From contig JASJCQ010000003.1 of assembly GCA_030065915.1 (NCBI GenBank), positions 248,001 through 312,000 on the forward strand: a stretch of DNA of 64,000 bases. Direction: 5' to 3'. Positions within the stretch are counted from its first letter, which is position 1. The number at the start of each line of letters is the position of its first letter. This document shows, one piece after another, positions 47,149 through 61,278 of the stretch. The DNA comes from Woeseiaceae bacterium (GTDB lineage Bacteria; Pseudomonadota; Gammaproteobacteria; Steroidobacterales; Woeseiaceae). The notes beneath the pieces were generated by a model. It was not told where the DNA came from. It ran no database searches and was given only the letters and a program-made list of their open reading frames with translations. The position numbers and the translations under genes were made by a program.

Positions 47149-47676
47149 ATGCTGATGGAGGTCACGGAACCAACCTGGGTGTTCGGCTACGGGTCCCTGA
47201 TCTGGAAACAGGACTTTCCTTTCCTTGAGTCCCGTGCGGGCTTTATCGAAGGCTGGTCGCGACGGTTCTGGCAGGGCTCGCACGATCATCGCGGCACCGA
47301 GACCAGCCCCGGTCGGGTGCTGACGCTGATCGAGACGCCCGGGCAACGCTGTTGCGGCCGCGCGTTTCTCGTCGAGCCGGACGTATTCGATCACCTGGAT
47401 CACCGGGAGAAAAACGGCTATGAACGCGTCGCCGTCGACATCCACTTCGAGAACAGCCGGAGCCCCGGTGTCGTTTATCGAGCTACGCCCGACAATCACG
47501 CGTTCCTTGGCGATGCGCCCCTCGACGAGATCGCAGAGCACATCGTTGGCAGTGAGGGGCCGAGCGGGCTGAACAGCGAGTACCTGATCGAACTCGCCTC
47601 TGCGTTGCGCGCCATGGGCGAGGCGGACGGCCACGTTTTCTCATTGGAATCGCGCGTTCTCGCGCTTTTGAAGTAG
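47149..47676 (+). CDS. ChaC-like gamma-glutamylcyclotransferase
   Basis: 175 residues. The N-terminal VFGYGSLIWKQDFPFLESRAGFIEGW is the ChaC signature (GYGSLIW). WQGSHDHRGTETSPGRVLTLI follows. The catalytic Glu lies in LDHREKNGYERV. The family breaks gamma-glutamyl peptides, in ChaC specifically glutathione, to 5-oxoproline and Cys-Gly. It is cytoplasmic. Length matches the short ChaC2-like form. The first of two in-frame ATGs is used; the second is two codons later. Confidence 0.88.
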   Translation: MLMEVTEPTWVFGYGSLIWKQDFPFLESRAGFIEGWSRRFWQGSHDHRGTETSPGRVLTLIETPGQRCCGRAFLVEPDVFDHLDHREKNGYERVAVDIHFENSRSPGVVYRATPDNHAFLGDAPLDEIAEHIVGSEGPSGLNSEYLIELASALRAMGEADGHVFSLESRVLALLK

Positions 47677-47712
47677 CGCCTGAGCCGGCGCCGGGCTGAA
47701 AACGCGAGCCGG

Positions 47713-48144
47713 TCAGTCGCCACCTCCACTCGTCTTGAATGCGGCGGCCAGTCCGCGAGCGCTCTCGAGCAGACCGTCCGGATCGTAGAGGGTTCTCAGT
47801 CCGTCGTTGATAACGCCGGCCGTCCCGGCATCCATTGGCGCCTCGGCCCATGCCTGGTCGGTTACACCGAGCTCGACTTCTGTCTCGCCGTAGAACACAC
47901 GGATGGACTGCACCAGGTTGTAGTCTTCAACCGGCTCCGCGATGCGAGCGCCGCTGCCGAGACGATAAATCCAGGATGGATCTTCAAGCAATGACCGGGG
48001 TCGCGGCGTCAGGACGCAGATGTCGATATCGGAATCAGGCGCCTGATCGCCGCGCGCATAGGAGCCGAGCAACCCTAAAGCGACGACGCGCTGATCGTTT
48101 CTTGACCAGCAGAGAACGTTGGCGATCAGGCTTTCCGGGTCCAT
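47713..48144 (-). CDS. Nucleotidyltransferase-domain protein (MNT-like)
   Basis: 143 residues. The nucleotidyltransferase signature GSYARGDQAPDSDIDICVL (G-S-x-R-G-D and S-D-x-D) is near residues 27-45. A third acidic residue is in TEVELGVTD. Proteins of this size act on small molecules such as aminoglycosides, or as the MNT antitoxin of HEPN-MNT pairs. No HEPN gene adjoins it, so the role is open. It lies 48 bp downstream of the malic enzyme on the same strand. Confidence 0.75.
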   Translation of the reverse strand: MDPESLIANVLCWSRNDQRVVALGLLGSYARGDQAPDSDIDICVLTPRPRSLLEDPSWIYRLGSGARIAEPVEDYNLVQSIRVFYGETEVELGVTDQAWAEAPMDAGTAGVINDGLRTLYDPDGLLESARGLAAAFKTSGGGD

Positions 48145-48192
48145 AGTCTGCGGCCGTGTGTGGCGGTTCCGTCGGCCATGGTGCCAGAGTCG

Positions 48193-49845
48193 CTAGGCAT
48201 AGTGCGGATAGATGGGTCGAAACATGTAGTCGCGGATATCTTCGAGGATATTCTCCGGTCTTTCCCTGTCCGTCAGGCCACGATCGTAGGCAATGCCGGC
48301 GACTTCCAGCGCGATGTGCGCCGACACCTCTCGAATGCGTGACAGCGACGGAAACAGCCGGCCGCGTTCGAGGTCAGCGTCGGAGACCTGCGCCGCGAGG
48401 GTTCGCGCCGAAGCGAGGAACATCTCATCGGTAACGCTACGCGCATGACTGGCGACGACGCCGAGGCCGACACCTGGGAAGATATAGGCGTTGTTGCACT
48501 GGCCCGGTACGAACGTGCGGTTACCGAACTTGACGGGGTCGAACGGACTGCCGCTGGCGAAGATCGCACGGCCCTCGCTCCAGGTGTAGGCCTGCTCGGC
48601 CGTGCACTCGGCTTTCACGGTCGGATTCGACAGGGCGAAGATAATGGGCCGATCGTTGATGCTAGCCATCGTCTCTACGACTTGCTGCGTGAAGAGTCCG
48701 GGCTGGCCGCTCAGGCCAATGATCGCCGTCGGTCGTAACGTCTCGATCACTTGATGAAAATCATCACTGGCCGGATGGTCGTGCGCATAAGGCAATTTGT
48801 GCGCTGCAAGGTCCGGCCGGCTGGCCACCACCAGGCCCTTTGTGTCGAACAGGAACGAACGCTGTCTCGCCTCTTCCAGGGGCATGCCGGCCTGGACAAG
48901 CGCTTCGGAAAAGATATCGGCCGTGCCGACCGCCGCCTCTCCCGCGCCGAGAAACAGCAGTTTTTGTGCAGACAGATCGCCACCGGTCAAACCCATCGCG
49001 CTGATGATGCCGGCGACCGTGACCGCACCGGTACCCTGGATATCGTCGTCGAACAGGCACGTCCGGTCGCGATACTCGGCAAGCAACCGGAACGCATTAA
49101 CGTTGCCGAAGTCTTCGAGCTGGATGACAACGCCGGGAAACACGTCGTTGGCTGCCTCGATGAACTCGGCGAACAGCGCATCGTACTCTTCACCGCGAAC
49201 GCGTTTTCGCTCGACGCCGTTGTAAAGCGGGTCATCGAGCAGCGCGTTGTTGTTGGTGCCGACGTCGAACATGATCGGGATGCAGTGGGTCGGGTGAATG
49301 CCTGCACATGCGGTGTACAGCGCCAGCTTGCCAATAGCGATGCCCATACCATCGGCACCGAGGTCGCCGAGGCCCAGGATGCGTTCACCATCGGTCACGA
49401 CGATCATGCGGGCGTCCTTGTGCGGCCAATTCTGCATCAGCTCGCGAATCCGCCCACGATCCTGGATAGACAGGTACAGCCCTCGTGACCGCCTGAAGAT
49501 GTGCTGGAACTCCTGGCACGCCTTGCCGACCGTTGGTGTATAGATCAGCGGCATGATCTCTTCGATATTGTTCAGGACCACGCGGTAGAACAGCGTCTCG
49601 TTTCGATCCTGCAGCGAGACGAGATACAGGTAGCGTTCGAGATCCGTCGGCTTCTCGCGGATGTTGCTCAGGGCCTTGAGCTCCTGCTCGGCCAGCGTGT
49701 GGACCCTCGGCGGCAGCAGGCCTTTCAGGCCCAGCTGATCGCGTTCGGCCTCCGTGAAAGCCGTGCCCTTGTTCCGAACCGGGTCATGCAGAATCTTGAC
49801 GCCGCGATGAAGCGCACTGGTGTTATTGTCGGCCACTGAATTCAC
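48193..49845 (-). CDS. maeA: NAD-dependent malic enzyme (oxaloacetate-decarboxylating)
   Basis: 550 residues, the length of the long NAD-type malic enzymes. Signatures: FYRVVLNNIEEIMPLIYTPTVGKACQEF (catalytic Tyr in YTPTVG), VVTDGERILGLGDLGADGMGIAIGKLALYTACAGI, QLEDFGNVNAF (metal site), FDDDIQGTGAVTVAGI and LFLGAGEAAVGTA (NAD binding). The C-terminus is FRPIYPHYA. The enzyme converts malate to pyruvate and CO2 with NAD in the cytoplasm, linking the TCA cycle to gluconeogenesis or acetate use. It lies at the boundary with the A/T-rich accessory region. Confidence 0.94.
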   Translation of the reverse strand: MNSVADNNTSALHRGVKILHDPVRNKGTAFTEAERDQLGLKGLLPPRVHTLAEQELKALSNIREKPTDLERYLYLVSLQDRNETLFYRVVLNNIEEIMPLIYTPTVGKACQEFQHIFRRSRGLYLSIQDRGRIRELMQNWPHKDARMIVVTDGERILGLGDLGADGMGIAIGKLALYTACAGIHPTHCIPIMFDVGTNNNALLDDPLYNGVERKRVRGEEYDALFAEFIEAANDVFPGVVIQLEDFGNVNAFRLLAEYRDRTCLFDDDIQGTGAVTVAGIISAMGLTGGDLSAQKLLFLGAGEAAVGTADIFSEALVQAGMPLEEARQRSFLFDTKGLVVASRPDLAAHKLPYAHDHPASDDFHQVIETLRPTAIIGLSGQPGLFTQQVVETMASINDRPIIFALSNPTVKAECTAEQAYTWSEGRAIFASGSPFDPVKFGNRTFVPGQCNNAYIFPGVGLGVVASHARSVTDEMFLASARTLAAQVSDADLERGRLFPSLSRIREVSAHIALEVAGIAYDRGLTDRERPENILEDIRDYMFRPIYPHYA

Positions 49846-49989
49846 CCCCGTCAGTTACCTTCTATGACCTTAATCCCGGGGTGGCCGGCCTATGAATGCC
49901 GGATTCTACCTAGGCCCTTGTTGACGCAAACCGACCTGGAGTCGTCTGTGCGCCTGAGGCAGAGACAAAGAGATCAAGACGCAAGGCTC

Positions 49990-50193
49990 CTAGCTGGATC
50001 GTTTCGCTGAAACCCATTCTCCGATATCGATCGAAACCTCGGGCATTGATGTCTCGAAAAAGGTCAGCATGTCTGTTATGAGTTCCGGGTTGCCCAGATT
50101 GAACTCAATGACCTTCCGGTCCTCAAGCTCTATGGCCACCCAATACTGTGTGGCAGAAGACGGTCCGAGCTTTGTCAGACAACCAAGATGACA
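49990..50193 (-). pseudogene. Gene fragment with a protein-like C-terminus
   Basis: A minus-strand frame runs from a TAA at 50194-50196 to a TAG at 49990-49992. It reads like a real protein C-terminus (VAIELEDRKVIEFNLG, NPELITDMLTFFETSMPEVS, then IDIGEWVSAKRSS) but has no ATG. The only alternative start is a GTG at 50139 without a ribosome-binding site. The N-terminal half appears lost. It is probably the decayed first unit of the accessory region. Between it and 50342, and between it and the malic enzyme (49846-49989), I see no other gene. Confidence 0.45.
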
Positions 50194-50342
50194 TTATCGA
50201 ATCTCGATATCTAATGTTTGAACAGCCCCTTAACATCCTGCGAGCATCCGGTTTGGGTCTCAAGCGTAAATACTACCTCAGAATTGACGGCCAGCTTCTT
50301 ACAGCCATTAGCGGCGGTCACATCTACACATTTGGAGCGCGT

Positions 50343-50774
50343 CTAGTCATCGCCTGCGGGCCAATCAAATCCTTCGACAATCAGCTCAATTCCGATTCGC
50401 CCTGACACACCGTACATCTCCTCTAGCATCGACTGGCACATCTTCGCCGAGCGCCCATCCTCGATTCGAAGGTACGAAACGTTGTTCATTTCAAGCTCAC
50501 GATAAGGAATGCGTTTCGTGTTTAGAAGCTCGACAAATTTACCCTTGTCACGAATATTGACCGGCGAAATAAGAACCCAATCCAGTCCAATGGAGCCATT
50601 CTCGATAGAAAACTGAATGTTCAGGGCGTCCTCATCAGGCTCCAGTTTTGGTGGCATGAATACTGCGAACGATCCATCTTGACCGGTCGTTTTCAATGCC
50701 TCGTAGACCCTCGGAATATCATCCAGAGAAACAGTGTCCGTCTGCGCAACGAATCCGCCTTGCCGAAAGTACAT
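50343..50774 (-). CDS. Membrane-anchored hypothetical protein with missing or non-standard start
   Basis: 143 residues from the first ATG. However, the frame is open for 18 more codons upstream and those encode a clear transmembrane helix (WVVVGIAVVGVIAIMYF) immediately before and across that ATG. None of these codons is ATG, GTG or TTG; an in-frame TGA precedes them at 50829-50831. AGGTGA lies a few bases before the ATC and ATT codons, so a rare ATT/ATC start or loss of the start codon is possible. The soluble part (SLDDIPRVYEALKTTGQDG through EELIVEGFDWPAGDD-like end) is not recognised. Confidence 0.5.
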   Translation of the reverse strand: MYFRQGGFVAQTDTVSLDDIPRVYEALKTTGQDGSFAVFMPPKLEPDEDALNIQFSIENGSIGLDWVLISPVNIRDKGKFVELLNTKRIPYRELEMNNVSYLRIEDGRSAKMCQSMLEEMYGVSGRIGIELIVEGFDWPAGDD

Positions 50775-50883
50775 GATGGCGATAACGCCGACGACGGCAA
50801 TTCCTACAACGACCCAAATATCGATAGTTCACCTAGTTTGTCAGTGATGCTATGGCAATAAACACGAATTGCTCGCGCTACGT

Positions 50884-50966
50884 CGAATGACCGCAATGGG
50901 TCAGTAGGAGTCATCCTATCTCAAATTCTCTGATTGGCGGCTAACGGCCAATAGCTGCCGGTCATC
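50884..50966 (+). repeat. Double-hairpin repeat, copy A
   Basis: Left hairpin: ATGACCGC, loop with TGGGTCAG, GGAGTCAT (imperfect). Linker CCTATCTCAAATTCTC. Right hairpin: GGCGGCT, loop AACGGCCAAT, AGCTGCC (7 pairs, one G-T). The TCA at 50962-50964 at the right edge is the stop codon of the minus-strand gene to the right. Confidence 0.75.
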
Positions 50967-51333
50967 TGATTCGAATTTCGTCAATTGGTGGCCATGTTTC
51001 GACGTCTCCGCCATCCACCGACCAAGCTTCAAGCTCGGTGGGCATTCCATCTTTCATAAAGAGCCCGATGCCGACTAACGTGCCGTTTTCGGCTCGGCCC
51101 GAACAATTCATGAGCGGCTGAGAATCGCGGCTTGTTATTGGTTCATCTTCTATTGATCTGCCGAACAACACTGTCGGGCATCTGCCACAACCACATCGAG
51201 CCACAATCTTCAGGCCACTGCCGTCGACAGCCAAATCGTCAACCTGCTTCAGTAGATAACTCAACAACGAAAGCTCAGCCTCTGTCTGGTCGCGCTTATC
51301 AGGAATGCAGTACGGAAAGCCGTATTCTTTCAT
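50962..51333 (-). CDS. Hypothetical cytoplasmic protein with CGCGRC motif
   Basis: 123 residues from the ATG at 51333 (an in-frame TTG three codons earlier is possible). The protein starts MKEYGFPYCIPDKRDQTE and has a Cys-rich turn (ARCGCGRCPTVLFG) that could bind metal or form disulphides. The C-terminus is WPPIDEIRIR. It resembles the small unassigned proteins common in cassette arrays, but I do not recognise a family. Its TGA is within the right edge of repeat A, and repeat B begins 27 bp upstream of its start. Confidence 0.62.
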   Translation of the reverse strand: MKEYGFPYCIPDKRDQTEAELSLLSYLLKQVDDLAVDGSGLKIVARCGCGRCPTVLFGRSIEDEPITSRDSQPLMNCSGRAENGTLVGIGLFMKDGMPTELEAWSVDGGDVETWPPIDEIRIR

Positions 51334-51359
51334 ATTCGACAAATTAAGCGCGGCGAAGA

Positions 51360-51439
51360 ACGACTGGCTGCTTTGGGTCAGGAGCCGTCAGTCTACCTCA
51401 TAACGCTTGGGAGGCAGCTCACGGCCAACAGCAGACGCT
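51360..51439 (+). repeat. Double-hairpin repeat, copy B
   Basis: The left hairpin is the best of the family: ACTGGCTGCTT, loop TGGGTCA, GGAGCCGTCAGT (ten pairs including wobbles, one mismatch). Linker CTACCTCATAACGCTTGGG. The right half contains CTCACGGCCAACAGC. The following TCA (51439-51441) is the stop codon of the next minus-strand gene. Confidence 0.8.
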
Positions 51440-51954
51440 CAGAAAGAACATAAAGCGCGATTGGGGCAGACCATAAGGACAACGTTGTGCGGTCCGTCCG
51501 CAGCGCTCTCTATGCCTTCAAAGACCCGCACTAGGCCGCTTTGTCCAGAGTAAAAGTCTATTACTCTGCCATCACCGGTGAATGACGTTGATCTATCGTG
51601 CGCTTTGCCGAACAACTGAGTCGCCACGTCAATCACGAAATCGGCAAGTTGCTCTGTCTTTTCCGGGTCGTTATACCCAATTACATAGTCGATATTGACG
51701 AACTGGTCGCTGTTAGTGCACGTCAGATACGCGACCGCAGTGTGTTCGAAAATTGTGGTTGTCAGCTTTGTCTGAGTCTTGGGTGTTCCGTACTGATCGT
51801 ATTCGTAGGTGTCTTCAATTGAAGCCCCGAGCGCAACTTCAGCCTCAAGAACTTCGTCGCAGGAAGATGTGTCGCCAAAACCTCGAAACTGGAAAGTTGA
51901 TTCTGCGTGAGCAACCCCGAACACGAAGAAAATTGCGATTATTGTTGCTCTCAT
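51439..51954 (-). CDS. Exported hypothetical protein
   Basis: 171 residues. A signal peptide (MRATIIAIFFVFGVAHAES, cleavage after AHA) precedes a small domain with several Cys (SSCDEVLEAE, LTCTNSDQF, VLMVCPNRALC) that may form disulphides. Not recognised. Codon use is more A/T-rich than in the flanking chromosome. Its stop touches repeat B and repeat C begins about 12 bp upstream of its ATG, leaving no room for a promoter outside the repeat. Confidence 0.65.
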   Translation of the reverse strand: MRATIIAIFFVFGVAHAESTFQFRGFGDTSSCDEVLEAEVALGASIEDTYEYDQYGTPKTQTKLTTTIFEHTAVAYLTCTNSDQFVNIDYVIGYNDPEKTEQLADFVIDVATQLFGKAHDRSTSFTGDGRVIDFYSGQSGLVRVFEGIESAADGPHNVVLMVCPNRALCSF

Positions 51955-51966
51955 TTCAAATTCGCG

Positions 51967-52046
51967 AGCGTCCGATTTGGGTCAGGAGCCGTCATTCTAA
52001 TCCAAAATGCCTAGCCGGCTGGTTCCGGCCAGTACCAGCCGCTCAA
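51967..52046 (+). repeat. Double-hairpin repeat, copy C
   Basis: Left part GTCCGATTTGGGTCAGGAGC then CGTCATTCTAATCC. Right hairpin perfect: CGGCTGGT (52016-52023), loop TCCGGCCAGT, ACCAGCCG (52034-52041). The edge GCTCA follows. The neighbouring gene to the right is on the plus strand, unlike the other copies. Confidence 0.8.
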
Positions 52047-52140
52047 GAGATATTTCCTATCACCTCAATGCGTCGGTTAAGTATTATTCAAATGTTCATA
52101 AGCGACCGTTCAATGATAGTCGAATGTACAGGCTGATAAA

Positions 52141-52851
52141 GTGAAAATCGGAACTAGCAGATCTCTAGCTATTTTGGTTTTGCTATTGCTTCTCACTAGC
52201 TGCAATCCGAATTCGGAATGTGCCAGATTTGTGGGTTGCGAGCTGGAAATCGTAGCTACGGAAAACTCAGTTGTTGTCGGCGATGATGTTTCTCTCAACT
52301 TCAGCCTCTCCGGATTTAACTATTATGATCATGATCCAGTTGAATCGCTGATTGTTGATCTCTTCGAAGACCCGTTGTGTAATCTTTCGATCTCAGTCAC
52401 GCCTGAACCAGCAAACTCTATACCGGCGTCGAGAGCCTGCGTTACAAGTCGATTCAAGTTGCCAAGCGAAGAGGAAATTGCTCTCGTAAATGCGCGTGGC
52501 AGAAACCTGACCTATAAGGTCTCTCCAGACAAGCGGGTCTCAATTCGACTGGACGATGAATACACGTATAGCTTGCAAGCCAAGACCCTCGAGCAAGAGG
52601 ACGGCTCGATCAAAGTGATGTTCGCAGATGATGTCTACTTCTCCTTTTGTGGAAAGGCTTACGTCACCTTCTTCGGCAGGCCTAGTTACAATACCTTCAT
52701 GTCGTCCCAGGAAGGTGGTTTCATGGATATCCTGATTTTTGAACAGGTAAGCCCGACATCGGACACCTCGCCTGGAATACGTATCTCATCACCTGGCGAG
52801 GATTCGCAGGAGGACTACCTGGCTCTCTTCAATACAGAGCCACAATGCTGA
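52141..52851 (+). CDS. Lipoprotein of unknown function
   Basis: 236 residues, GTG start. The signal peptide ends in a lipobox (LLLLTSCNP). The mature part is beta-rich (VVVGDDVSLNFSLSGFNYYD, KVSPDKRVSIRLDDEYTYSL, DDVYFSFCGKAYVTFFG) and could be an immunoglobulin-like fold; no family is recognised. It is the only plus-strand gene in the repeat-rich segment. The A/T-rich composition matches its neighbours there. No clear Shine-Dalgarno sequence. Confidence 0.65.
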   Translation: MKIGTSRSLAILVLLLLLTSCNPNSECARFVGCELEIVATENSVVVGDDVSLNFSLSGFNYYDHDPVESLIVDLFEDPLCNLSISVTPEPANSIPASRACVTSRFKLPSEEEIALVNARGRNLTYKVSPDKRVSIRLDDEYTYSLQAKTLEQEDGSIKVMFADDVYFSFCGKAYVTFFGRPSYNTFMSSQEGGFMDILIFEQVSPTSDTSPGIRISSPGEDSQEDYLALFNTEPQC

Positions 52852-52921
52852 GTTGCTGTTGAAAGTAGAATTGCGAACTTCTGCAGTCGGACTAAAGGCG
52901 AGATCGGAAAGAAGCTTTGGC

Positions 52922-52956
52922 GACCTTCGCCTTACGGCCAGAACCAGCCGTTGAAC
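52922..52956 (+). repeat. Double-hairpin repeat, partial copy D (right half)
   Basis: CTTACGGCCAGAACCAGCCG followed by TTGA matches the right half of the family. The left half is not recognisable. It sits 26 bp from the end of the DUF805 gene. Confidence 0.6.
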
Positions 52957-52982
52957 ACCAAGAAATTCAGAGGCCAGAATCC

Positions 52983-53345
52983 CTAAGTGACAGCATAGGA
53001 CGCTGGGTCCGGTCCGTACTTGTTGTCGCCCCGATTGCCGGGGACAAGACCTACACCAACCCAGACCAATATTCCAAAATAAGGAACGACGGAAAGCAGG
53101 CACAACCACCAAGGAAGTCCAATGTCGTGCCATCGCTTTGACTGAACGACTAGTGAGGGTGGCCACAATACGACGGACATGATGAATATCATTTTTATCA
53201 CTTGATTTGGATGAAGTCCGGTAACTGCGGCCCAACCCCCCGCGAATGCCCCGATGACCGCAAAAGGGACTACGCCGAAGAGCCAATAGAACTTACGACT
53301 ACAACGGCCTTCGATCGAAAAATAGACACGTATAAGGAAGTTCAT
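52983..53345 (-). CDS. DUF805 family membrane protein
   Basis: 120 residues. It matches DUF805: an N-terminal YFSIEGRCSRKFYWLFGVVPF (the family's GRxxRxxFW motif), three to four hydrophobic helices, and SKRWHDIGLPWWLCLLSVVPY (family xxRRLHDxG motif, here KRWHDIG) before a GNRGDNKYGPDP tail. DUF805 proteins are small inner-membrane proteins of unknown function, often found in mobile or integron-associated regions. A frame-shifted minus-strand frame covering 52789-53286 is only its shadow. Partial repeats lie on both sides. Confidence 0.88.
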   Translation of the reverse strand: MNFLIRVYFSIEGRCSRKFYWLFGVVPFAVIGAFAGGWAAVTGLHPNQVIKMIFIMSVVLWPPSLVVQSKRWHDIGLPWWLCLLSVVPYFGILVWVGVGLVPGNRGDNKYGPDPASYAVT

Positions 53346-53404
53346 CCAGATTGCATTCAGGCGGGCGGCCTAGGTCACGGGCGGAAATAATACATCGATC
53401 AGCC

Positions 53405-53441
53405 TAGTCGACTCCTTACGGCAAGTAGCGGCCGCTGGCTT
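53405..53441 (+). repeat. Double-hairpin repeat, partial copy E (right half)
   Basis: CTTACGGCAAGTAGCGGCCG resembles the right half. No gene lies between it and copy F, so one unit may have lost its gene here. Confidence 0.5.
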
Positions 53442-53512
53442 TTACAGCAATTACCAACTGTCCGAGAAGTGCCTGTCCAAGAATTCGCCGCTGTGCTCCG
53501 AGCCGGGTAGAT

Positions 53513-53598
53513 TGCGATCGTCCCCTTTGGGTCAGAAGCCGTCAGTCTATCTCAAAAGGCTTGTGTGACTGGTCTCGGCCAGAGCCGGTCGTTCACAG
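53513..53598 (+). repeat. Double-hairpin repeat, copy F
   Basis: Left half CCTTTGGGTCAGAAGCCGTC, then AGTCTATCTCAAAAGGCTTG. Right hairpin GACTGGT, loop CTCGGCCAGA, GCCGGTC (seven pairs, two G-T), then GTTCA. The TCA at 53593-53595 is the stop codon of the HIT gene. Confidence 0.8.
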
Positions 53599-54069
53599 GT
53601 GTCGGCAAATCTCCGCGACAGTCTGCTTTTTTTCGTCTGTGACGATCAGATGATCCTGATGCTTCAATCGGCCTTCTCGCTCCAATCTTTCTAGATGTGG
53701 AGGACCGAAGCCCCAATCGCTGGCTGGTTGTCGCGGAACAACATGGAGATGGAAGTGCGGTACTTCCTGGCCACTGCCGACACCATTGTTCTGATAGAGC
53801 AGGACACCACCTGGGGAGTAGGCACGAACCAACGCCCGCGACAAACGTTTGGCGGCAGCCATCACCGCTGCTTCTTCGGCTTCTTCCAGATCTAGTAAAG
53901 ACGGCGCATGGCGGCGCGGGATAACAACACATTGGCCGACCTCGAACTGGCGGCCATTTAGCAGAGTCATCGTCAATACGTCTCCTTCGATGATCTGCCA
54001 TTGATGAGTGTTGCCGGTGACAATCTCGCAAAAAAAACAAGGGTCACCCTCCGGCATTGGAAAATACAT
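53593..54069 (-). CDS. HIT (histidine triad) family hydrolase
   Basis: 158 residues. The histidine triad is HFHLHVVPR (His105, His107, His109). An N-terminal CFFC pair (Cys11, Cys14) and FCEIVTGN are usual in HIT proteins and may bind zinc. VIPRRHAPSLLDL and NNGVGSGQEVPH are other family blocks. HIT enzymes hydrolyse nucleoside phosphoramidates or dinucleoside polyphosphates. It is the most recognisable enzyme in the repeat-rich segment, and its TGA lies in the edge of repeat F. Confidence 0.88.
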   Translation of the reverse strand: MYFPMPEGDPCFFCEIVTGNTHQWQIIEGDVLTMTLLNGRQFEVGQCVVIPRRHAPSLLDLEEAEEAAVMAAAKRLSRALVRAYSPGGVLLYQNNGVGSGQEVPHFHLHVVPRQPASDWGFGPPHLERLEREGRLKHQDHLIVTDEKKQTVAEICRHL

Positions 54070-54100
54070 GTCGATACCTAGGTCAGAATTGGCAGTCCGC

Positions 54101-54180
54101 GAACAGTTGCTTCGGGTCAGTAGAAGTCGTCCTACCTTAAGACACCTGTACGGCGACTCTCGGCCAGAAGCGGTTGTTAG
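54101..54180 (+). repeat. Double-hairpin repeat, copy G
   Basis: Left half AACAGTTGCTTCGGGTCAGT, then AGAAGTCGTCCTACC. Right half CGGCGACTCTCGGCCAGAAG followed by CGGTTGTTAG. The arms pair with several wobbles. It begins 31 bp upstream of the HIT start. Confidence 0.75.
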
Positions 54181-54189
54181 ATTCGATCA

Positions 54190-54456
54190 CTATTGCCCTA
54201 GTGCGGCCCCAAAGAGCCGGATCGCTGCGTATGCAAACGCGCAAGCCAGCAGAAGGTAAGCCGCGAGCAACACATAAATCTCATTGCCTTCCCACAAGAT
54301 GTTGAGAACCCTAATACTGGTTTCAACGTTCAGGGTACCCGTCCGTACTGCAGGCAATACCTCTGACCGTGCAATGTAAAAGGCGAAATATCCGAACGAC
54401 ACACATAGGGAAAAGAGCACAATACCGACAGTACCGTACATAAGCTTCTTCAACAC
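54190..54456 (-). CDS. Small two-helix membrane protein
   Basis: 88 residues from a GTG at 54456 (or 83 from the ATG at 54441). Two strong hydrophobic helices: GTVGIVLFSLCVSFGYFAFY and YVLLAAYLLLACAFAYAAI. The frame is open far upstream, but that part translates repeat H and the next gene's end, so it is not used. No family recognised. The start of repeat H is only a few bases upstream of the GTG. Confidence 0.6.
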   Translation of the reverse strand: MLKKLMYGTVGIVLFSLCVSFGYFAFYIARSEVLPAVRTGTLNVETSIRVLNILWEGNEIYVLLAAYLLLACAFAYAAIRLFGAALGQ

Positions 54457-54461
54457 TGAAT

Positions 54462-54540
54462 GTCCGCTAAGCGTCACTAAGAGGTATCCTACCTCAAAAC
54501 GCCTGGGTGGCTGGCCTTGGCCAGAATCGGTGGGTGAGCA
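54462..54540 (+). repeat. Double-hairpin repeat, copy H
   Basis: Left half GAATGTCCGCTAAGCGTCAC, linker TATCCTACCTCAAAACGC. Right half CTGGCCTTGGCCAG is a perfect local palindrome within GGTGGCTGGCCTTGGCCAGA. It sits between the small membrane protein and the MepA-like gene. Confidence 0.75.
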
Positions 54541-54548
54541 GCCGCAGA

Positions 54549-55229
54549 CTACAGGGGTTTGCAGGGCACATCGAAGTCGACGTGATAGTGGTCGTCGTGC
54601 CGGACCCACGAACGGCGAGTCGAGAATTCCACGTTCTCCTTTAGATATGGCCATCTGGGCGAGCTGTGAAGAAAGGGTTGGAGTTTTGGATCTAAGATAA
54701 CTCGCCAGATACCGATGCCATGCCGCTTAGCCGATACATCAAGCTGGTAGATATGCTCGGCTACCGCTTCAAAATCTATGGTCAATTCGTCTAGTTTACC
54801 TTTGGAGTCAAACTCCAGGTCGTAACCCCACTTGTTCAGAATACTACTCGGCAGTTCAACGGATTCACCGTCTTTGTTGAGTACCGGAACCATAAAATCG
54901 ACAGATAGACCGTTCCGATGCGTTTTGTGTGGCTTGAACTGTCCGCCGTCCTTCCAGCCCGTTTCGCCATACACAAAAACCTTTTCCGGAAGGACTTTCT
55001 CAAGTTGCGCATAGGCATCGATTACAACAGAATGAACAGTGCTATGGACGTAACTTCGCCCAGCGATTCTTCCTACGGCCCAGTGCGCCGAGTAGTTTGA
55101 CCCTGATGCGGGCAGCTTCCAGCCATTCTCAAGCCTGCCATTCGACGTCGTCCCATAGCAGACACTAGGCTCCTGCCCATAGGCTTGAACAACCAAGAAC
55201 ATTGAAATCAGAAACGAAATTCGAAGCAA
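54549..55229 (-). CDS. MepA-like (M74) murein endopeptidase
   Basis: 226 residues from a TTG at 55229, which has AGGA nine bases upstream and starts a signal peptide (LRISFLISMFLVVQAYGQ); the ATG at 55202 is an alternative. The LAS-type zinc site is present: His104 and Asp111 in HKTHRNGLSVD, and HDDHYHVDF (His214, His216). The Ser/Tyr-rich N-terminal segment (YVHSTVHSVVIDAY) also fits penicillin-insensitive murein endopeptidase, which cuts D-Ala-meso-DAP cross-links in peptidoglycan in the periplasm. It is shorter than E. coli MepA. Finding it in a repeat-bounded unit is notable. Confidence 0.8.
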   Translation of the reverse strand: MLRISFLISMFLVVQAYGQEPSVCYGTTSNGRLENGWKLPASGSNYSAHWAVGRIAGRSYVHSTVHSVVIDAYAQLEKVLPEKVFVYGETGWKDGGQFKPHKTHRNGLSVDFMVPVLNKDGESVELPSSILNKWGYDLEFDSKGKLDELTIDFEAVAEHIYQLDVSAKRHGIGIWRVILDPKLQPFLHSSPRWPYLKENVEFSTRRSWVRHDDHYHVDFDVPCKPL

Positions 55230-55253
55230 AATCCGTTTTCCTACGAAGATTGG

Positions 55254-55334
55254 TGACCACCTGGAATGGGTCAGAAGCCGTCGATTCACCTCAGAACTTT
55301 TGAGCTGCGGCTGACTGCCAGAACCAGCTATTAC
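55254..55334 (+). repeat. Double-hairpin repeat, copy I
   Basis: Left half GGAATGGGTCAGAAGCCGTC, linker GATTCACCTCAGAAC. Right half GCGGCTGACTGCCAGAACCA followed by GCTATTAC. The TAG of the next minus-strand gene (55334-55336) abuts it. Confidence 0.78.
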
Positions 55335-55894
55335 TATCCATTCTGAAATGACTGCCGGATAGCAGCGGCCAAGCCCTTCATGTCTCCCTTCATCATGAGC
55401 TTCCATTTGCCTTCAATCAATCTCATAGAGATCACATCCATCATCTCGACTGAGTTTTCCCCCCACCCGAGTCTCTGGCGAATAACCACGTGTGCTTTTT
55501 CGTCACCTTCGGGTACAGATCCGATCACCTCGATACCGTCGAAGGAAAAAGAACCAGATGCCTGCAGTTGTTGAAAGATCAACTGCAAGAACGTCGAGAA
55601 GAACTCCGAATCTGACATTGCATTGAGTTTCTCGACCGTAATGTCAGGCCCGAACAGGGCTTCGATCTGCTGCGGATCGGAGACATTCGGGTTCTCGTAA
55701 ACGATGCGCAACAAGTCTCGAAACTCGCCGAGCTCCTTAGGATCGAACATAGAAGCCGCTCGAACGTAGTCGCCTGATCTGACAATCTCATAAAACATTA
55801 CTGCAGTTGCCGACGGCTCTGCATCAGCTGCGGCGGACAACTGCGTGCCTACGGACATAGCAAGTAGGCAGACGATAATCTTCACAATCCGCAT
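55334..55894 (-). CDS. Exported hypothetical protein
   Basis: 186 residues; AAGGAT lies upstream of the ATG. A signal peptide (MRIVKIIVCLLAMSVGTQLSAAADA) precedes a mixed alpha/beta domain beginning EPSATAVMFYEIVRSGDYVRAASMFDPKEL and ending in strands VIRQRLGWGENSVEMMDVISMRLIEGKWKLMM. This is reminiscent of DUF4878/NTF2-like exported domains, but I am not sure. It is the last minus-strand gene of the repeat-rich segment. Confidence 0.62.
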   Translation of the reverse strand: MRIVKIIVCLLAMSVGTQLSAAADAEPSATAVMFYEIVRSGDYVRAASMFDPKELGEFRDLLRIVYENPNVSDPQQIEALFGPDITVEKLNAMSDSEFFSTFLQLIFQQLQASGSFSFDGIEVIGSVPEGDEKAHVVIRQRLGWGENSVEMMDVISMRLIEGKWKLMMKGDMKGLAAAIRQSFQNG

Positions 55895-55919
55895 GTCTTG
55901 GATCCTTCTTATGCAGTAC

Positions 55920-55985
55920 GAGACCGATGACCGTTATGGGTCATTTCCAGACCTCCATCATACCCCGAGATCAGCCGCTCGAACG
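55920..55985 (+). repeat. Double-hairpin repeat, partial copy J (left half)
   Basis: ATGACCGTTATGGGTCATTT matches the left half; the right half has decayed (only AGCCGCTC remains). It marks the right end of the array. The rest of the 303-bp gap 55895-56197 holds no supported gene. Confidence 0.6.
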
Positions 55986-56197
55986 ACCGCTCTCCGGCGT
56001 ATAGCAGACCTCGTCATTCGCCAAAAGTCTGCCTGTACTTACCTTCCCTACGCTATTAATTGCAATCCAACGCTCTTGGTTACCAGAAACCACAGCCTGG
56101 TATTTGGGGTCGGCCTGTACGAATAGTGCGGCGTGTGTAGTATTACCGTTGCTCGACGAAAACGAATGCGAATCAGTCACTGTTTGAGGAGGCAAGC

Positions 56198-57349
56198 ATG
56201 GTTTCTAGACGCGCCCTGCTAACGACCGGAGCGGCATCTGTCGTTATTGCCGGTCTGGGAGGCACCTGGTGGGCAACGACGGGGCCGGCGACATCGGCTC
56301 GTGCGCCGTGGCGCAGCGCCTCGGCCGGCCTCGGCGACCCTCGCCTCAATGCCCTGGCGTACGCCATCCTCGCGCCTAACCCGCACAACATGCAGCCGTG
56401 GCGGATCCAGCTGGAGGAGGGCCTCAGGTTCACCGTCTTCGCCGACCTGGCGCGTTTGTTGCCGGAGACCGACCCACCGGACCGGCAGATTACGATCGGC
56501 TTTGGCTGTTTCCTCGAGCTTTGTCGCCAGGCGGCGAATGAGTCGGGATACCGGGCAGACATCGCGTATTTCCCGGAAGGCGAGCCGCAGCCGCGGCTCG
56601 ACCAGCGACCGATCGCGACTGTCGAACTTGTCGAAGATCGATCCGTCCAGACTGACCCGCTATTCGCGACGGCACTCGGTCGGCGAACCAGCCGGTTCGA
56701 ATACGACCTGTCACGACCCGTAGAAGCCAGCGTGCTTCGGCAACTCGAGGCTGCGTCCGTAGACGGTGTTCGTGTTGCAACGACAGCAGAGGCCGGCCTG
56801 GTCCATGAGCTCAAGACACTCTGTTCGGATGCGTGGCAGGTCGAATGGTCCAACAAAGCTACTCGCCAGGAGAGCATTGAAGTCATGCACGTCGGCCGCG
56901 CTGCGGTTGAAGACAGGCCATACGGGATCGCACTCGATGACCGAATCAACTCAACGCTTGGCAAAGCAGGGATGGTGAGTCCGGAGGCGCTCGACGATCC
57001 TGAGTCCATGGCCTACCAGGAATCGTTCAAGTTCTACGACAAGGCCTGCCGTTCCGCCTCTGCGTTTGTCTGGTCAACGACGGAGACGAACTCGCGAAGC
57101 GCCCAACTCGATGCCGGACGGGCGTGGGTTCGAGTCCAGCTCGCAGCGAATGCCGCCGGGTTGTCGTTTCACCCGCTGAGCCAGGCGTTGCAGGAGTTTC
57201 CGGAAATGGCGGAACCGTATCGCAGGGCGCATGAGCTCTTAGCGAACGAAGACGGACAGACCGTGCAGATGCTGGCCAGGCTGGGTTACGGTCCCGCCGT
57301 TGGCGCGTCGCCGCGGGAGCGTCTCGAATCCAAACTCGTAGAGGTTTGA
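56198..57349 (+). CDS. Tat-exported nitroreductase-like (Acg family) protein
   Basis: 383 residues; an excellent GAGGAGG lies seven bases before the ATG. The N-terminus MVSRRALLTTGAASVVIAGL is a twin-arginine signal. The rest matches Acg-like nitroreductase-fold proteins: YAILAPNPHNMQPWRI (FMN-binding start), GFGCFLELCRQAANESGY, FATALGRRTSRFEYD, and GRAWVRVQLAANAAGLSFHPLSQALQ near the C-terminus. Tat export suits a protein that binds its flavin before translocation. Members are flavin-storing or flavin-binding proteins of uncertain substrate. It is followed by the serine hydrolase after 7 bp. Confidence 0.85.
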   Translation: MVSRRALLTTGAASVVIAGLGGTWWATTGPATSARAPWRSASAGLGDPRLNALAYAILAPNPHNMQPWRIQLEEGLRFTVFADLARLLPETDPPDRQITIGFGCFLELCRQAANESGYRADIAYFPEGEPQPRLDQRPIATVELVEDRSVQTDPLFATALGRRTSRFEYDLSRPVEASVLRQLEAASVDGVRVATTAEAGLVHELKTLCSDAWQVEWSNKATRQESIEVMHVGRAAVEDRPYGIALDDRINSTLGKAGMVSPEALDDPESMAYQESFKFYDKACRSASAFVWSTTETNSRSAQLDAGRAWVRVQLAANAAGLSFHPLSQALQEFPEMAEPYRRAHELLANEDGQTVQMLARLGYGPAVGASPRERLESKLVEV

Positions 57350-57356
57350 CAGGCTC

Positions 57357-58445
57357 ATGAAACGAATTGCCTGCAGCATCCTGATTTCCGCTTTTCTCGT
57401 CGCCTTCGGCGAGAGGGGGTGGGCCGAAGGTGTCTCGGCGGATACCGCAGAGAAGAACCTGCCGGCGCTCGTTGCTGAGCTGGTTCGAGAATACAGGATG
57501 TCCGGCGTTGTTCTCGTAACGGCGAACGGCGAGTCCGTTTTTGAGCAGGCCTTTAACCTCGACGCGTTACAGTCGGACTTCCGGATTAAGGTCGATAGCG
57601 CGTTTACGATCGCGTCGATCACCAAGAGCTTCACTGCAACCCTGGTGCTGCGCCATGTCAGTTCGGGGAAGATCGACCTGGACAAGGCAGTCCGTGCCTA
57701 TCTTCCGGAGTTCGAAGCGCCCTACGCTGAAGACGTCACCGTGCGACAGCTTCTTCAGAACCGATCCGGCATCCCTCACTACGTCGACATTCCAGGCTGG
57801 TTCGATCCGGAGCTCAAGAGCGGCTTCACGCCCGAGTCGTTCCTGGCCCGGATCGCGGCACTAGAGTTGCGTTTTCCGCCAGGTGAGGACTATCACTACT
57901 CCAACGCAAACTATTACCTGCTTGGCCTCATTCTCGAATCGGTGACAGGAGACGCTTACGAAACGCTTCTCCAGGAGCAGATCCTAAATCCGCTTGGACT
58001 CGAGAACACCGGGCAGATCTATTCACCGGGCTCACAGGCTATTGCACCAACCTACCTCCGTGACGGTGATACGTACGAAAACACTGTGGTAAGCAACCCG
58101 ATCCTGTTTAGGGCCACAGCATCGCAGTATTCGTCAGCGCAAGACCTGAGCACATTTGGTCGGGCGCTGATGCAGGGGGCTGTTCTTGATTCAGCGATGC
58201 GCGACGTGCTTTTGGACAGTGACGCACCGATGGGCTTCATCGTGACATCGGCACCCCTGTCGAATCGGGAAACTAGCATCGTTACCTATAATGGTGAGCT
58301 TGTGGGGGCGACCAGTATGCTGACGATTTTTCCCGATCAGGACGGCACGATTGTCATCCTCTCGAACAGCAACACGCCATACTCTGCGCTGGCCCAAATG
58401 ACGCTGTCTATTGCAGAGCTTGTCTTCGCAGAACCCTCCGGCTGA
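57357..58445 (+). CDS. Class C beta-lactamase-family serine hydrolase
   Basis: 362 residues with a signal peptide (MKRIACSILISAFLVAFGERGWAEG). The catalytic SxxK is S87-I-T-K90 in FTIASITKSFTATL. The second motif is YSN in YHYSNANYYLLGLILESVTG. The third (KTG-like) element is not clear in the C-terminal part. Proteins of this size are usually D-aminopeptidases, esterases or carboxypeptidases, not true beta-lactamases. It lies 7 bp after the nitroreductase-like gene, so they share an operon. Confidence 0.86.
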   Translation: MKRIACSILISAFLVAFGERGWAEGVSADTAEKNLPALVAELVREYRMSGVVLVTANGESVFEQAFNLDALQSDFRIKVDSAFTIASITKSFTATLVLRHVSSGKIDLDKAVRAYLPEFEAPYAEDVTVRQLLQNRSGIPHYVDIPGWFDPELKSGFTPESFLARIAALELRFPPGEDYHYSNANYYLLGLILESVTGDAYETLLQEQILNPLGLENTGQIYSPGSQAIAPTYLRDGDTYENTVVSNPILFRATASQYSSAQDLSTFGRALMQGAVLDSAMRDVLLDSDAPMGFIVTSAPLSNRETSIVTYNGELVGATSMLTIFPDQDGTIVILSNSNTPYSALAQMTLSIAELVFAEPSG

Positions 58446-58524
58446 CCTCTGGCCGCTGCAGGAATGGAGTTATGCCGCCACCCCTTGCTACGGATTAAGC
58501 GGCCTTGGCCGCAGCTTTCGATTC

Positions 58525-59025
58525 ATGGATGAGAGCGTCATTCTGAGGGGTGTGCTGTTGTTCGTCGTTCTCCTTCCAGCAGGCTGCGAGCTTCGGGTTC
58601 ATGAGAACCTCTTCATCATCCCAAATGGATACACTGGCCCGGTTGAGCTTATTCTCATTGACGGGGCGGACGCCGCCTATAGCGTGATCGACAATCGCAA
58701 CGTATACGTTATCCCCGCCTCCGGCGTTCTTTGTGTTGCGTCCTTCAAGAACTTCACCTCCGGATGGGGCATAACCCATGCCAGGTACGAAGACAGCAGT
58801 GAGATTCCACTTGCACCGGACGATCAGTTTGACGACGTTCGCTTTGGGCCCTTGCTGCAGAGATGGTCAGCCACGCTAAGTCATGCAGGCAGGCGCACAG
58901 AAGTTCTCTCCGACCCGGAGCTTCTCTTCTATATCGGCAATTCGATTGAGATGTCTGAGGCCAGGGAATCCTGGTCGAAGCTGGAGCCGGTTTTTCGTCG
59001 CGAGTTTTGCGCTGAGGCTCCATAG
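58525..59025 (+). CDS. Lipoprotein, unknown function
   Basis: 166 residues from the ATG at 58525, giving a signal peptide with lipobox (LLPAGC). Codons upstream do not. The mature part starts ELRVHENLFIIPNGYTGPVELIL, resembling the IPxGYxGPV pattern of small exported DUF6843-like domains, an uncertain match. It is about 80 bp after the serine hydrolase. Confidence 0.62.
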   Translation: MDESVILRGVLLFVVLLPAGCELRVHENLFIIPNGYTGPVELILIDGADAAYSVIDNRNVYVIPASGVLCVASFKNFTSGWGITHARYEDSSEIPLAPDDQFDDVRFGPLLQRWSATLSHAGRRTEVLSDPELLFYIGNSIEMSEARESWSKLEPVFRREFCAEAP

Positions 59026-59141
59026 GTACTTCGGCGACGGATTGTCTGTGATGCAACGCAGGATGCTCAGTTCCCGGGCTAACGACCCAGGAATGGTCTG
59101 CTAAGGTCTCGACCTGGAACCTCTATCGGAGAGCGCGATCG

Positions 59142-59549
59142 TTGACGATCTTTAGTCACATCACACTAGGCGTGAACAACCTGGATGCGTCGATTGCTTT
59201 TTATGACGGTGTAATGGGAGTGCTCGGATACGAGCGCCATTCAACTGGCGACTCGTTCGCCGGCTACGGGCCGCGGGACGGCTCGCAGTTCGGGACGAAC
59301 TCTTTGTGGATACTGACACCGTCGGATGGCGAACCGGCGTCCGGTGCCAATGGCACCAATATCGCCCTGCATGCGCCGGACAGACAGGCTGTAAGAGACT
59401 TCCATCGGGTGGCCGTTGAGTTGGGTGGAAGAGACGATGGCGAACCAGGCGTCCGTGCAGACGTCCACCCGAATTTTTACGCCGGATATATCTACGACTT
59501 AGACGGCAACAAGCTAGTGATCGTTTGTCACTACGGCGAGGATGCCTGA
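59142..59549 (+). CDS. VOC-family (glyoxalase-like) protein
   Basis: 135 residues, TTG start with GGAGA about ten bases upstream. Two beta-alpha-beta-beta-beta modules: IFSHITLGVNNLDASIAFYDGVMGVLGYE and NIALHAPDRQAVRDFHRVAVELGGRDDG, ending HPNFYAGYIYDLDGNKLVIVCH. The metal ligands include His6 and a Glu/His in the second half. Such proteins are lyases, dioxygenases or resistance proteins. The substrate cannot be told. Confidence 0.86.
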   Translation: MTIFSHITLGVNNLDASIAFYDGVMGVLGYERHSTGDSFAGYGPRDGSQFGTNSLWILTPSDGEPASGANGTNIALHAPDRQAVRDFHRVAVELGGRDDGEPGVRADVHPNFYAGYIYDLDGNKLVIVCHYGEDA

Positions 59550-59667
59550 GGGCTACGCATCGCGATCGAACCGCTTGGTGACTGCAGTCGGTGCTTCGTC
59601 TTCGACCTCGAGAGAACGTCTCACCACATACCGGGATAAGCGAATAGTCACCCTGCCGATCCGAGCG

Positions 59668-61044: not shown

Positions 61045-61278
61045 TGGCTATCCCCCATTGCGTGAAGCCTGATTCTCATCCAACAAGAAGTTAAAGACCA
61101 CTCCTTGTTGAGCTCGCCTGCCCAACCTGCGTCGAACGGCCGTACCGCTCTTGAACAGCCTCCGATCCGGTGGCCGACCGCGGATTCACGCAACTGTCGG
61201 GCAGATGTCGTGCGGTTTACGTAACCGACATTGGTAGAATTCCCGGACACTTGCGGTTCTCAAGCACTGGACGCGACT

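Follow-up and report, generated by a model that had tools for sequence, protein, structure and literature searches.

How does a row of small, unrelated genes come to stand one by one between copies of the same short repeat? This question is raised by a window of 64,000 nucleotides (nt) from a Woeseiaceae bacterium (contig JASJCQ010000003.1, positions 248,001 to 312,000), in which a first-pass annotation had noticed a repeat of about 80 bp between such genes and had compared the layout to that of integrons, the textbook case of single-gene cassette capture. It proposed a divergent or decayed integron, a distinct form of gene capture on the cassette plan of integrons, or a system like the repetitive extragenic palindromic (REP) sequences. 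The second of these is now supported by repeat copies that sit at gene boundaries, by a scrambled gene order and by unit ends that mostly fall at the repeats. The repeat is an element of 81 nt that contains two similar cores, and we put the chances at about two in three that the genes between its copies are mobile cassettes of one gene each, linked by short recombination cores of double-stranded DNA. This reading draws on the anatomy of the arrays, their distribution, the reshuffling and transfer of their genes and the positions at which shared units break. In its behaviour the array resembles the cassette arrays of integrons and the arrays of dif modules, but the features tested assign it to neither.

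In what follows, G000 is the genome that holds the window (3.96 Mb, 99.98% complete), other G-numbers are compared genomes and L-numbers are fetched loci. The fetched stretches were picked around strong element matches, and open reading frames (ORFs) were called mechanically.

The element and its two cores

In gene orientation, which is the minus strand of the window, the element has the consensus TGAACGTCCGCTTCTGGCCGAAACCAGCCGCCCAGGCGTTTTGAGGTAGACTGACGGCTTCTGACCCAAAGCGGACATTCG, taken from frequencies in 75 copies. Its edges are sharp in these copies, as information is high over most of the 81 positions and at most 0.15 bits on either side. Core A (GTCCGCTT-CTGGCCGA-AACCAGCC) and core B (GACGGCTT-CTGACCCA-AAGCGGAC) are imperfect direct repeats that lie in the same orientation, 47 nt apart. 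Each core has two inverted arms of about 8-13 bp (G-N-C-N-GCTT ... AAGC-N-G-N-C) flanking a conserved, asymmetric centre of 8 bp, CTGRCCSA. The outer arms of the element are also mutually inverted, with 11 of 14 aligned consensus positions complementary. A -10-like TANNNT stands at a fixed place between the cores in 164 of 198 copies, a set from 14 genomes made up of copies with complete ends and an E value no higher than 1e-3. A full sigma-70 promoter is not established because no TTGACA-like -35 was seen by eye at 16-18 nt from TANNNT. The joint between two genes is often a pair of directly oriented cores, spaced by 47 nt and with TANNNT between them. In a matrix scan neighbouring cores were spaced by 47 nt in 164 of 201 cases, a figure that is partly built in since the matrix was taken from copies found with the 81-nt model. 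Single cores occur besides pairs, because the scan gave 269 single-core clusters against 31 in block-shuffled sequence. Some relatives have a form of about 125 nt that, by eye, has a strong added hairpin like GGCTGCTTCRCNTCGCATAGCAGCC between the cores (L136, L138-L140, L145-L149 and L153); identity among its copies, both within and between several species, is 70-92%.

Each repeat had first been described as two hairpins. The consensus is palindrome-like, but conserved hairpins were not found; the arms do not covary and the two hairpins are actually the two cores. RNAalifold gave no pairs across 64 copies, mutual information revealed no long-range pairing among the copies, and arm complementarity was barely above that of shuffled sequence (z 2.5 for the arms of the same copy, z 1.5 for the two ends of one cassette). 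The folds of single copies differ from one copy to the next, and the window had no Rfam match at gathering scores. A structured RNA or a folded single-stranded DNA is rejected on the Rfam, RNAalifold, mutual information and arm-pairing results. The conserved feature is a double-stranded sequence and not a fold.

Arrays in the genome and beyond

A model made from the window copies alone gave 108 matches at E <= 1 in G000 (best E 4e-21), in about 15 arrays that are nearly all of a single orientation. At E <= 0.01 the 20 fetched stretches contained 94 matches. Of these, 83 lie outside the window array, and a few of the 94 are opposite-strand echoes of palindromes. The copies are not spread evenly through the genome, they are clustered in arrays at gene boundaries. 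With a stricter model at least 77 copies were found in G000, and matches were found in 33 of 36 relatives of the same genus (1 to 51 each) and in five of 23 genomes from other families of the order. Copy counts vary widely within the genus. G010 has 51 matches and G012 has 36, and no element match was found in G004 and G011 (1.5 Mb each) or in G017. A locus from another family (L225, G039) has the same layout. Viral contigs had no match to two exact patterns, phages had none when one copy was the query, and one copy searched against 72,556 plasmid records returned a single 26-bp match at chance level (E 0.6). One core pattern run against the GTDB contig set matched three stretches; two are arrays (L097 and L099) and the third, from Vreelandella, seems by eye to be coding sequence. 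No description of the 81-nt element was found in the titles and abstract openings of the papers that the literature searches returned, with subscription journals and preprints outside the scope of that search.

The arrays follow a regular plan. Among intervals of 150 to 1600 nt between copies in G000, 54 of 65 hold an ORF of at least 70 amino acids (aa) fully inside, 50 on the element strand and four on the opposite strand, and the ORF covers a median of 91% of the interval. In the 14 genomes 169 of 190 intervals hold such an ORF (159 on the element strand, 10 opposite) and 160 of the 190 have a single main ORF. Adjacent copies no more than 1600 nt apart are co-oriented in 194 of 197 cases. 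ORFs often start 10-40 nt past an element. Stop codons, in many cases, are either within 40 nt of an element or in its first bases. Pfam scans covered 57 of the G000 array proteins, and about 20 of these have a match, with GNAT, HIT, DUF805, glyoxalase, methyltransferase, GST, HAD, DJ-1, SpoU, peptidase M74 and others represented. When the ORFs of the array loci and their flanking genes, 1036 in all, were clustered against each other only, they formed 937 families, of which 868 are confined to one genome.

Reshuffling and transfer of single genes

The closest relative found is G088, whose malic enzyme-like protein is 93% identical in aa. At the locus that matches the window, the flanks corresponding to 47170-49913 and 59668-61090 sit 24 bp apart in G088, and 49914-59667 is missing. 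Four further flank-matched loci (L103/L076, L104/L073, L109/L072 and L113/L075) gave no in-place array match of at least 120 bp. Minimum alignment lengths were 120, 150, 130 or 250 bp depending on the comparison, and short matches of 120-212 bp, in most cases one element aligned with another, did not enter the cassette counts. Between the array loci of G088 and those of G000 there are 17 matching pieces of cassette size (430-1433 bp, 74-91% DNA identity). Fifteen of them lie in L104, L108, L109, L111 and L116 of G088, and the remaining two in L102 and L107. Because each of those five loci matches several G000 loci, the 15 pieces cannot all be in place. On the contig L108 alone, seven pieces from six G000 loci are lined up. 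The loci of G088 that match do not keep the gene order of the arrays, a conserved order being one of the findings that the first-pass annotation had named as speaking against cassettes.

Single genes are also shared between more distant species. A trmH-like cassette (L067:9060-9900) has 91% DNA identity to its copy in G002 and 89% to that in G012, and these two copies are 94% identical to each other; the malic enzymes of G002 and G012 are 70% and 73% identical in aa to that of G000. Counting G000, 12 of the 73 genus genomes have the cassette, with 85-92% identity where the match exceeds 400 bp, and G077 has three copies. In L183:2606-3249, beside the trmH cassette, two small adjacent minus-strand ORFs resemble by eye a CcdB/CcdA toxin-antitoxin pair. 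Pairs of the CcdB/CcdA type are common among integron cassettes.

Break positions

The unit that moves between arrays and species consists of the right half of core B, the gene and the left half of core A. In seven trmH copies (L179, L180, L189, L190, L191, L193 and L194) homology starts with the right arm of core B, A(A)GCGGAC. Upstream identity among these seven contexts is 0.90-1.00 from AGCGGAC inward, 0.74 in the 6 nt outside it, where the core itself is conserved, and 0.26-0.63 farther away. The left part of core B precedes the break in six of the seven. On the downstream side, four copies (L179, L180, L185 and L190) keep an identity of 0.9-1.0 through GGCTGCTTTTGGCC (to TTGGCC), which is the left arm and centre of core A, and identity then falls to 0.33 and 0.23. 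In a fifth copy, L188, which was left out of the second downstream profile, homology stops a few bases earlier than in the other four. The bases after the break in L179 are another right arm, TTAGCGGACGTTC, and the break resembles a joint of two cassettes at a single hybrid core.

Among the other matches of at least 250 bp with an end element, counted where the end lies more than 40 nt from the locus edge, nine of 15 upstream ends fall at element positions 55-76 and four at 82-88; on the downstream side the range from -20 to 29 takes in 17 of 20 ends. A position-wise comparison of preselected pairs places the onset of excess identity near position 70 upstream (N=7) and its end near position 24 downstream (N=4). 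The first-pass annotation had suggested testing whether units differ between related strains exactly at repeat-to-repeat boundaries, and the shared units do mostly start and stop at elements.

Several observations weigh against the reading as mobile cassettes. The boundaries are placed to the base mainly by one cassette family, trmH, and the pairs of the position-wise profile had been preselected by position (25-125 upstream and -40 to 75 downstream). The left part of core B is not clear in L180; L189, L191 and L193 are contig-end fragments with 61-173 bp of the trmH cassette; six copies (L178, L181, L182, L183, L186 and L192) have a different left end, likewise right after TGACC; and L184 and L187 have no recognised upstream element. 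Outside the trmH family there are exceptional upstream ends at positions 8 (L064/L133, the HIT cassette) and 42 (L078/L104) and exceptional downstream ends at 49 (L064/L068), 52 (L067/L111) and 68 (L101/L119), some of which may reflect a family resemblance between two elements. Intergenic DNA diverges fast and homology would therefore tend to stop near gene ends in any case, which makes the sharp step within the core essential to the argument. The genomes look like metagenome-assembled genomes, many contigs end within arrays, and the reshuffling is judged mainly from two assemblies. No responsible enzyme was found, and no circle or excision product was seen.

Proposed mechanism

Since single genes move as units bounded by half cores, the behaviour of the arrays is integron-like. 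The most economical mechanism would be site-specific recombination at the CTGRCCSA centres, and the parts that move would be either gene units or linker units. A site-specific recombinase would cut at the core centres and either a gene unit or a linker/promoter unit would be excised. The product would probably be circular and closed by a palindromic core composed of the left half of A and the right half of B (A.left|B.right). The excised unit would reinsert at another core. The constant centre would set its orientation, and the linker would supply a promoter to each incoming gene. The enzyme might be provided in trans from elsewhere, it might belong outside PF00589 and PF00239, it might have been lost from G000 or, less likely, it might be XerCD.

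A wider proposal can be made tentatively. The arrays may represent gene capture that is independent of integrons, in which any stretch between two CTGRCCSA cores, whether a gene or the 47-nt promoter linker, would be separately movable by a recombinase that is of an unrecognised family or acts in trans. Such a system would be widespread in the genus searched and present in other families of the order. The known families that were tested each disagree with the arrays in a feature that defines them. A second system of this kind, if real, would show that the cassette plan has had more than one origin, would explain some of the accessory genes of the genus searched and would point to an undiscovered recombinase. 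It would have sites of its own, about 15 arrays on each chromosome and a promoter-like box at the majority of joints, with no integrase in sight.

Relation to known systems

The arrays share many features with integrons and with clusters of attC sites lacking integron integrases (CALIN). These include tandem single-gene units, small diverse genes with one per site, co-oriented repeats, a short distance from gene to site, the exchange of single units between arrays and species, and a bipartite site with inverted arms. The arrays could be CALIN-type clusters of a far-diverged integron, with the 81-nt element being attC-like and IntI either lost or supplied in trans from relatives, but we consider this unlikely. 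The inverted outer arms (11/14), the spacers and the inner arms recall attC, and the upstream breakpoint lies at the border of spacer and outer arm, analogous to the place where attC is cut. IntI (TIGR02249) exceeded the cut-off in 11 of 60 genomes. Ten of these belong to other families; in the genus it was found in one of 36 relatives, together with two partial genes. No protein of G000 is over the cut-off, and the two below it are XerD and XerC. Ten intI loci were fetched, eight of them short, and no element copy was found in them at E < 0.2. One genome of the same order, G044, has a canonical-looking integron at an IntI locus (L177) with three GCNGCCTAACAA repeats, which are of the ordinary GCCTAACAA type and differ from the 81-nt element.

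The site itself, for the most part, also argues against an integron. The R boxes of attC are RYYYAAC and GTTRRRY at the two ends. Both are present in one of the 198 element copies and either one in eight. PMC9024848 describes attC sites as conserved in secondary structure and variable in sequence. The 81-nt element is the reverse; it is conserved in sequence, it has no conserved pairs in 64 copies, and its arms hardly covary (best z 2.5, for arms of the same copy). According to PMC2727003, attC recombination takes place only at the L'-R' half. The upstream break at core B fits this feature, but 17 of the 20 downstream breaks are at or before core A and three further on, so both cores of a joint seem to be boundaries. 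The arrays further differ from integrons and CALIN in their number, about 15 in the genome, and in the -10-like box at most two-core joints. With no IntI over cut-off in G000, R boxes at both ends in a single copy, no conserved fold and different repeats in G044, the original idea of a divergent or decayed integron is not supported by the features tested.

Xer-driven modules comparable to the dif modules of Acinetobacter, in which XerC and XerD would recombine the cores, are less probable still. In both cases genes are moved between short recombination sites and the only PF00589 recombinases may be XerC/D. The two PF00589 proteins of G000 are XerD and XerC (NCBIfam), and both lie outside the window, in which the first-pass annotation had rightly noted no integrase; G002, G029, G030, G083 and G088 likewise have just two PF00589 matches each. 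Two dif sites were found in 1.46 Mb of fetched array-centred DNA. The first, in G030 (L131:10906, exact), adjoins a core, and the second, in G083 (L183:3253, one pattern mismatch), is about 0.9 kb from the trmH cassette, so the arrays may favour the dif region. Action of Xer on the cores is unlikely, however, because both dif sites are canonical. They are AT-rich, unlike the GC-rich cores, and a dif centre has 6 bp whereas the core centre has 8 bp. The sites of dif modules differ from the element in sequence, G+C content and length, and the elements here are found on chromosome-sized contigs. The cores are nearly always co-oriented, whereas pdif sites alternate in orientation.

It is very unlikely that the element is comparable to REP sequences or bacterial interspersed mosaic elements (BIMEs) and is spread by a REP-associated tyrosine transposase (RAYT) of the Y1 type. 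In that case ordinary rearrangement, or template switching at palindromes, would account for the scrambled gene order. Like REP and BIME sequences, the element is a short, intergenic, palindrome-like repeat with many copies. G000 has a single Y1_Tnp match, 18 of 37 genomes have matches, and one RAYT of G039 shares a contig with element copies. This positional linkage concerns one of the eleven loci looked at. The other ten Y1/RAYT loci (six of 4-7 kb, four with flanks of about 1.5 kb) have no element copy at E <= 1, and the array-rich G010 and G012 have no Y1_Tnp match. In contrast to REP sequences, the elements are concentrated in arrays, they bound single genes and they are not distributed with RAYT genes; no REP sequences are known to bound transferable single-gene units. 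The REP-like system that had first been offered is weakly placed as a result. A shared terminator or promoter spacer with no role in recombination, at which homology would stop because only genes are conserved, is hardly credible, since it agrees with the fixed place of TANNNT, with a GGTAGAAT box that is also present upstream of the flanking malic enzyme-like gene and with the stop codons often found at the element edge, but leaves unexplained the one-by-one reshuffling between arrays, the near-identical cassettes in distant relatives and the abrupt step inside a core, with the 60 nt on the cassette side 90-100% identical.

Mobile insertion cassettes carry passenger genes between the ends of insertion sequences. 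The units described here are similar in having inverted ends (AAGCGGAC ... GTCCGCTT) and an 8-bp direct repeat, CTGRCCSA, on each side. Unlike a variable target duplication, however, the centre of 8 bp keeps one consensus across all joints, and the units stand head to tail.

The search for an enzyme covered other families as well. PF00239 had no match in G000 at E <= 0.001 and had matches in one of the 23 same-genus relatives searched. None of the top 45 ORF families of the array loci looked like a recombinase shared by the arrays. RAYT, a serine recombinase, an integron integrase and extra tyrosine integrases were each considered as linked enzymes, and none tracks the arrays in the searched genomes. 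The linked tyrosine or Y1 transposase gene that the first-pass annotation had suggested looking for did not turn up in those genomes, the contig of G039 with a RAYT being the sole positional exception.

The array in the window and neighbouring features

The window array extends from 50241 to 55334 and has eight near-complete and two partial or degenerate copies, all in one orientation. The first-pass annotation had counted about six near-complete and four partial copies in 50884-55985. The repeat family is real, as the 83 matches outside the array demonstrate, and the array does lie there, but the counts have changed and the left edge is about 640 nt earlier. The single orientation of the copies was confirmed, and so was the arrangement of one gene per interval with almost all genes on the minus strand.

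All the copies are on the minus strand, as are the genes between them with one exception. A divergent copy 0 (50241..50321, E 1e-10) is followed by a gene of 143 aa (50343..50774) and by copy 1 (50884..50964, E 2e-17), which has core A, a linker with TAGGAT and core B. The next two genes, of 126 aa (50962..51342) and 171 aa (51439..51954), have their stop codons inside copy 1 and inside copy 2 (51361..51441, E 3e-21), respectively, and copy 3 is at 51965..52045 (E 7e-20). None of these three genes has a Pfam match. The exception in strand is an ORF of 236 aa (52141..52851, plus strand), lipoprotein-like by eye and also with no Pfam match. To its right are a weak half element with core A only (52931..52953, hmm 2-24, E 0.13), a gene with a DUF805 domain (PF05656, 52983..53345), a degenerate element (53373..53436, hmm 3-66, E 6e-5) and copy 4 (53515..53595, E 7e-20). 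The HIT domain gene (PF01230, 53593..54069) has its stop codon inside copy 4, and a G030 array (L133) contains a homologue of its cassette with 76% DNA identity. Between copy 5 (54100..54180, E 5e-14) and copy 6 (54457..54537, E 2e-14) is a gene of 83 aa with no Pfam match (54190..54441), of which another G000 array (L068) has an 85.5% DNA duplicate. The ORF for a peptidase M74 or MepA-like protein (PF03411) is called at 54549..55406, with the true start probably near 55246, and its cassette has a 91% DNA homologue in an array of G088 (L116). Copy 7 (55254..55334, E 4e-12) is where the last gene, of 186 aa and with no Pfam match (55334..55894), ends, and a further weak half-copy was seen by eye near 55.93 kb.

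Two short patterns were counted in the window. With one mismatch GGCNNNTNNCGGCCAG has 14 matches against 2.1 (sd 1.3) in shuffled sequence, and none of 100 shuffles reached 14; just five of the 14 fall in array cores. With three mismatches TGGGTCAGNAGNNGTC is not in excess (17 against 18.9 in shuffles), and its five exact matches in the window are all within the array.

The flanking malic enzyme-like gene, named by eye, is at 48193..49845 on the minus strand and is conserved beside the empty site of G088. The segment missing from the matching G088 locus (49914..59667) contains the array and further plus-strand ORFs. The latter lie between the array and the right flank, at 56198-59549, and two of them resemble by eye nitroreductase-like and beta-lactamase-family proteins.

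A second dispersed palindrome, GTAGGAGCGGC...GCCGCTCCTAC, which we take to be REP-like, was found in or beside several arrays (L073:3593 and L062:3373, and by eye in L108, L116, L104 and L076); exact GTAGGAGCGGC was absent from eight RAYT loci. Tandem repeats are present beside two arrays, at L063:6228-6644 with an offset of 126 bp and at L111:7163-7691 with an offset of 94 bp.

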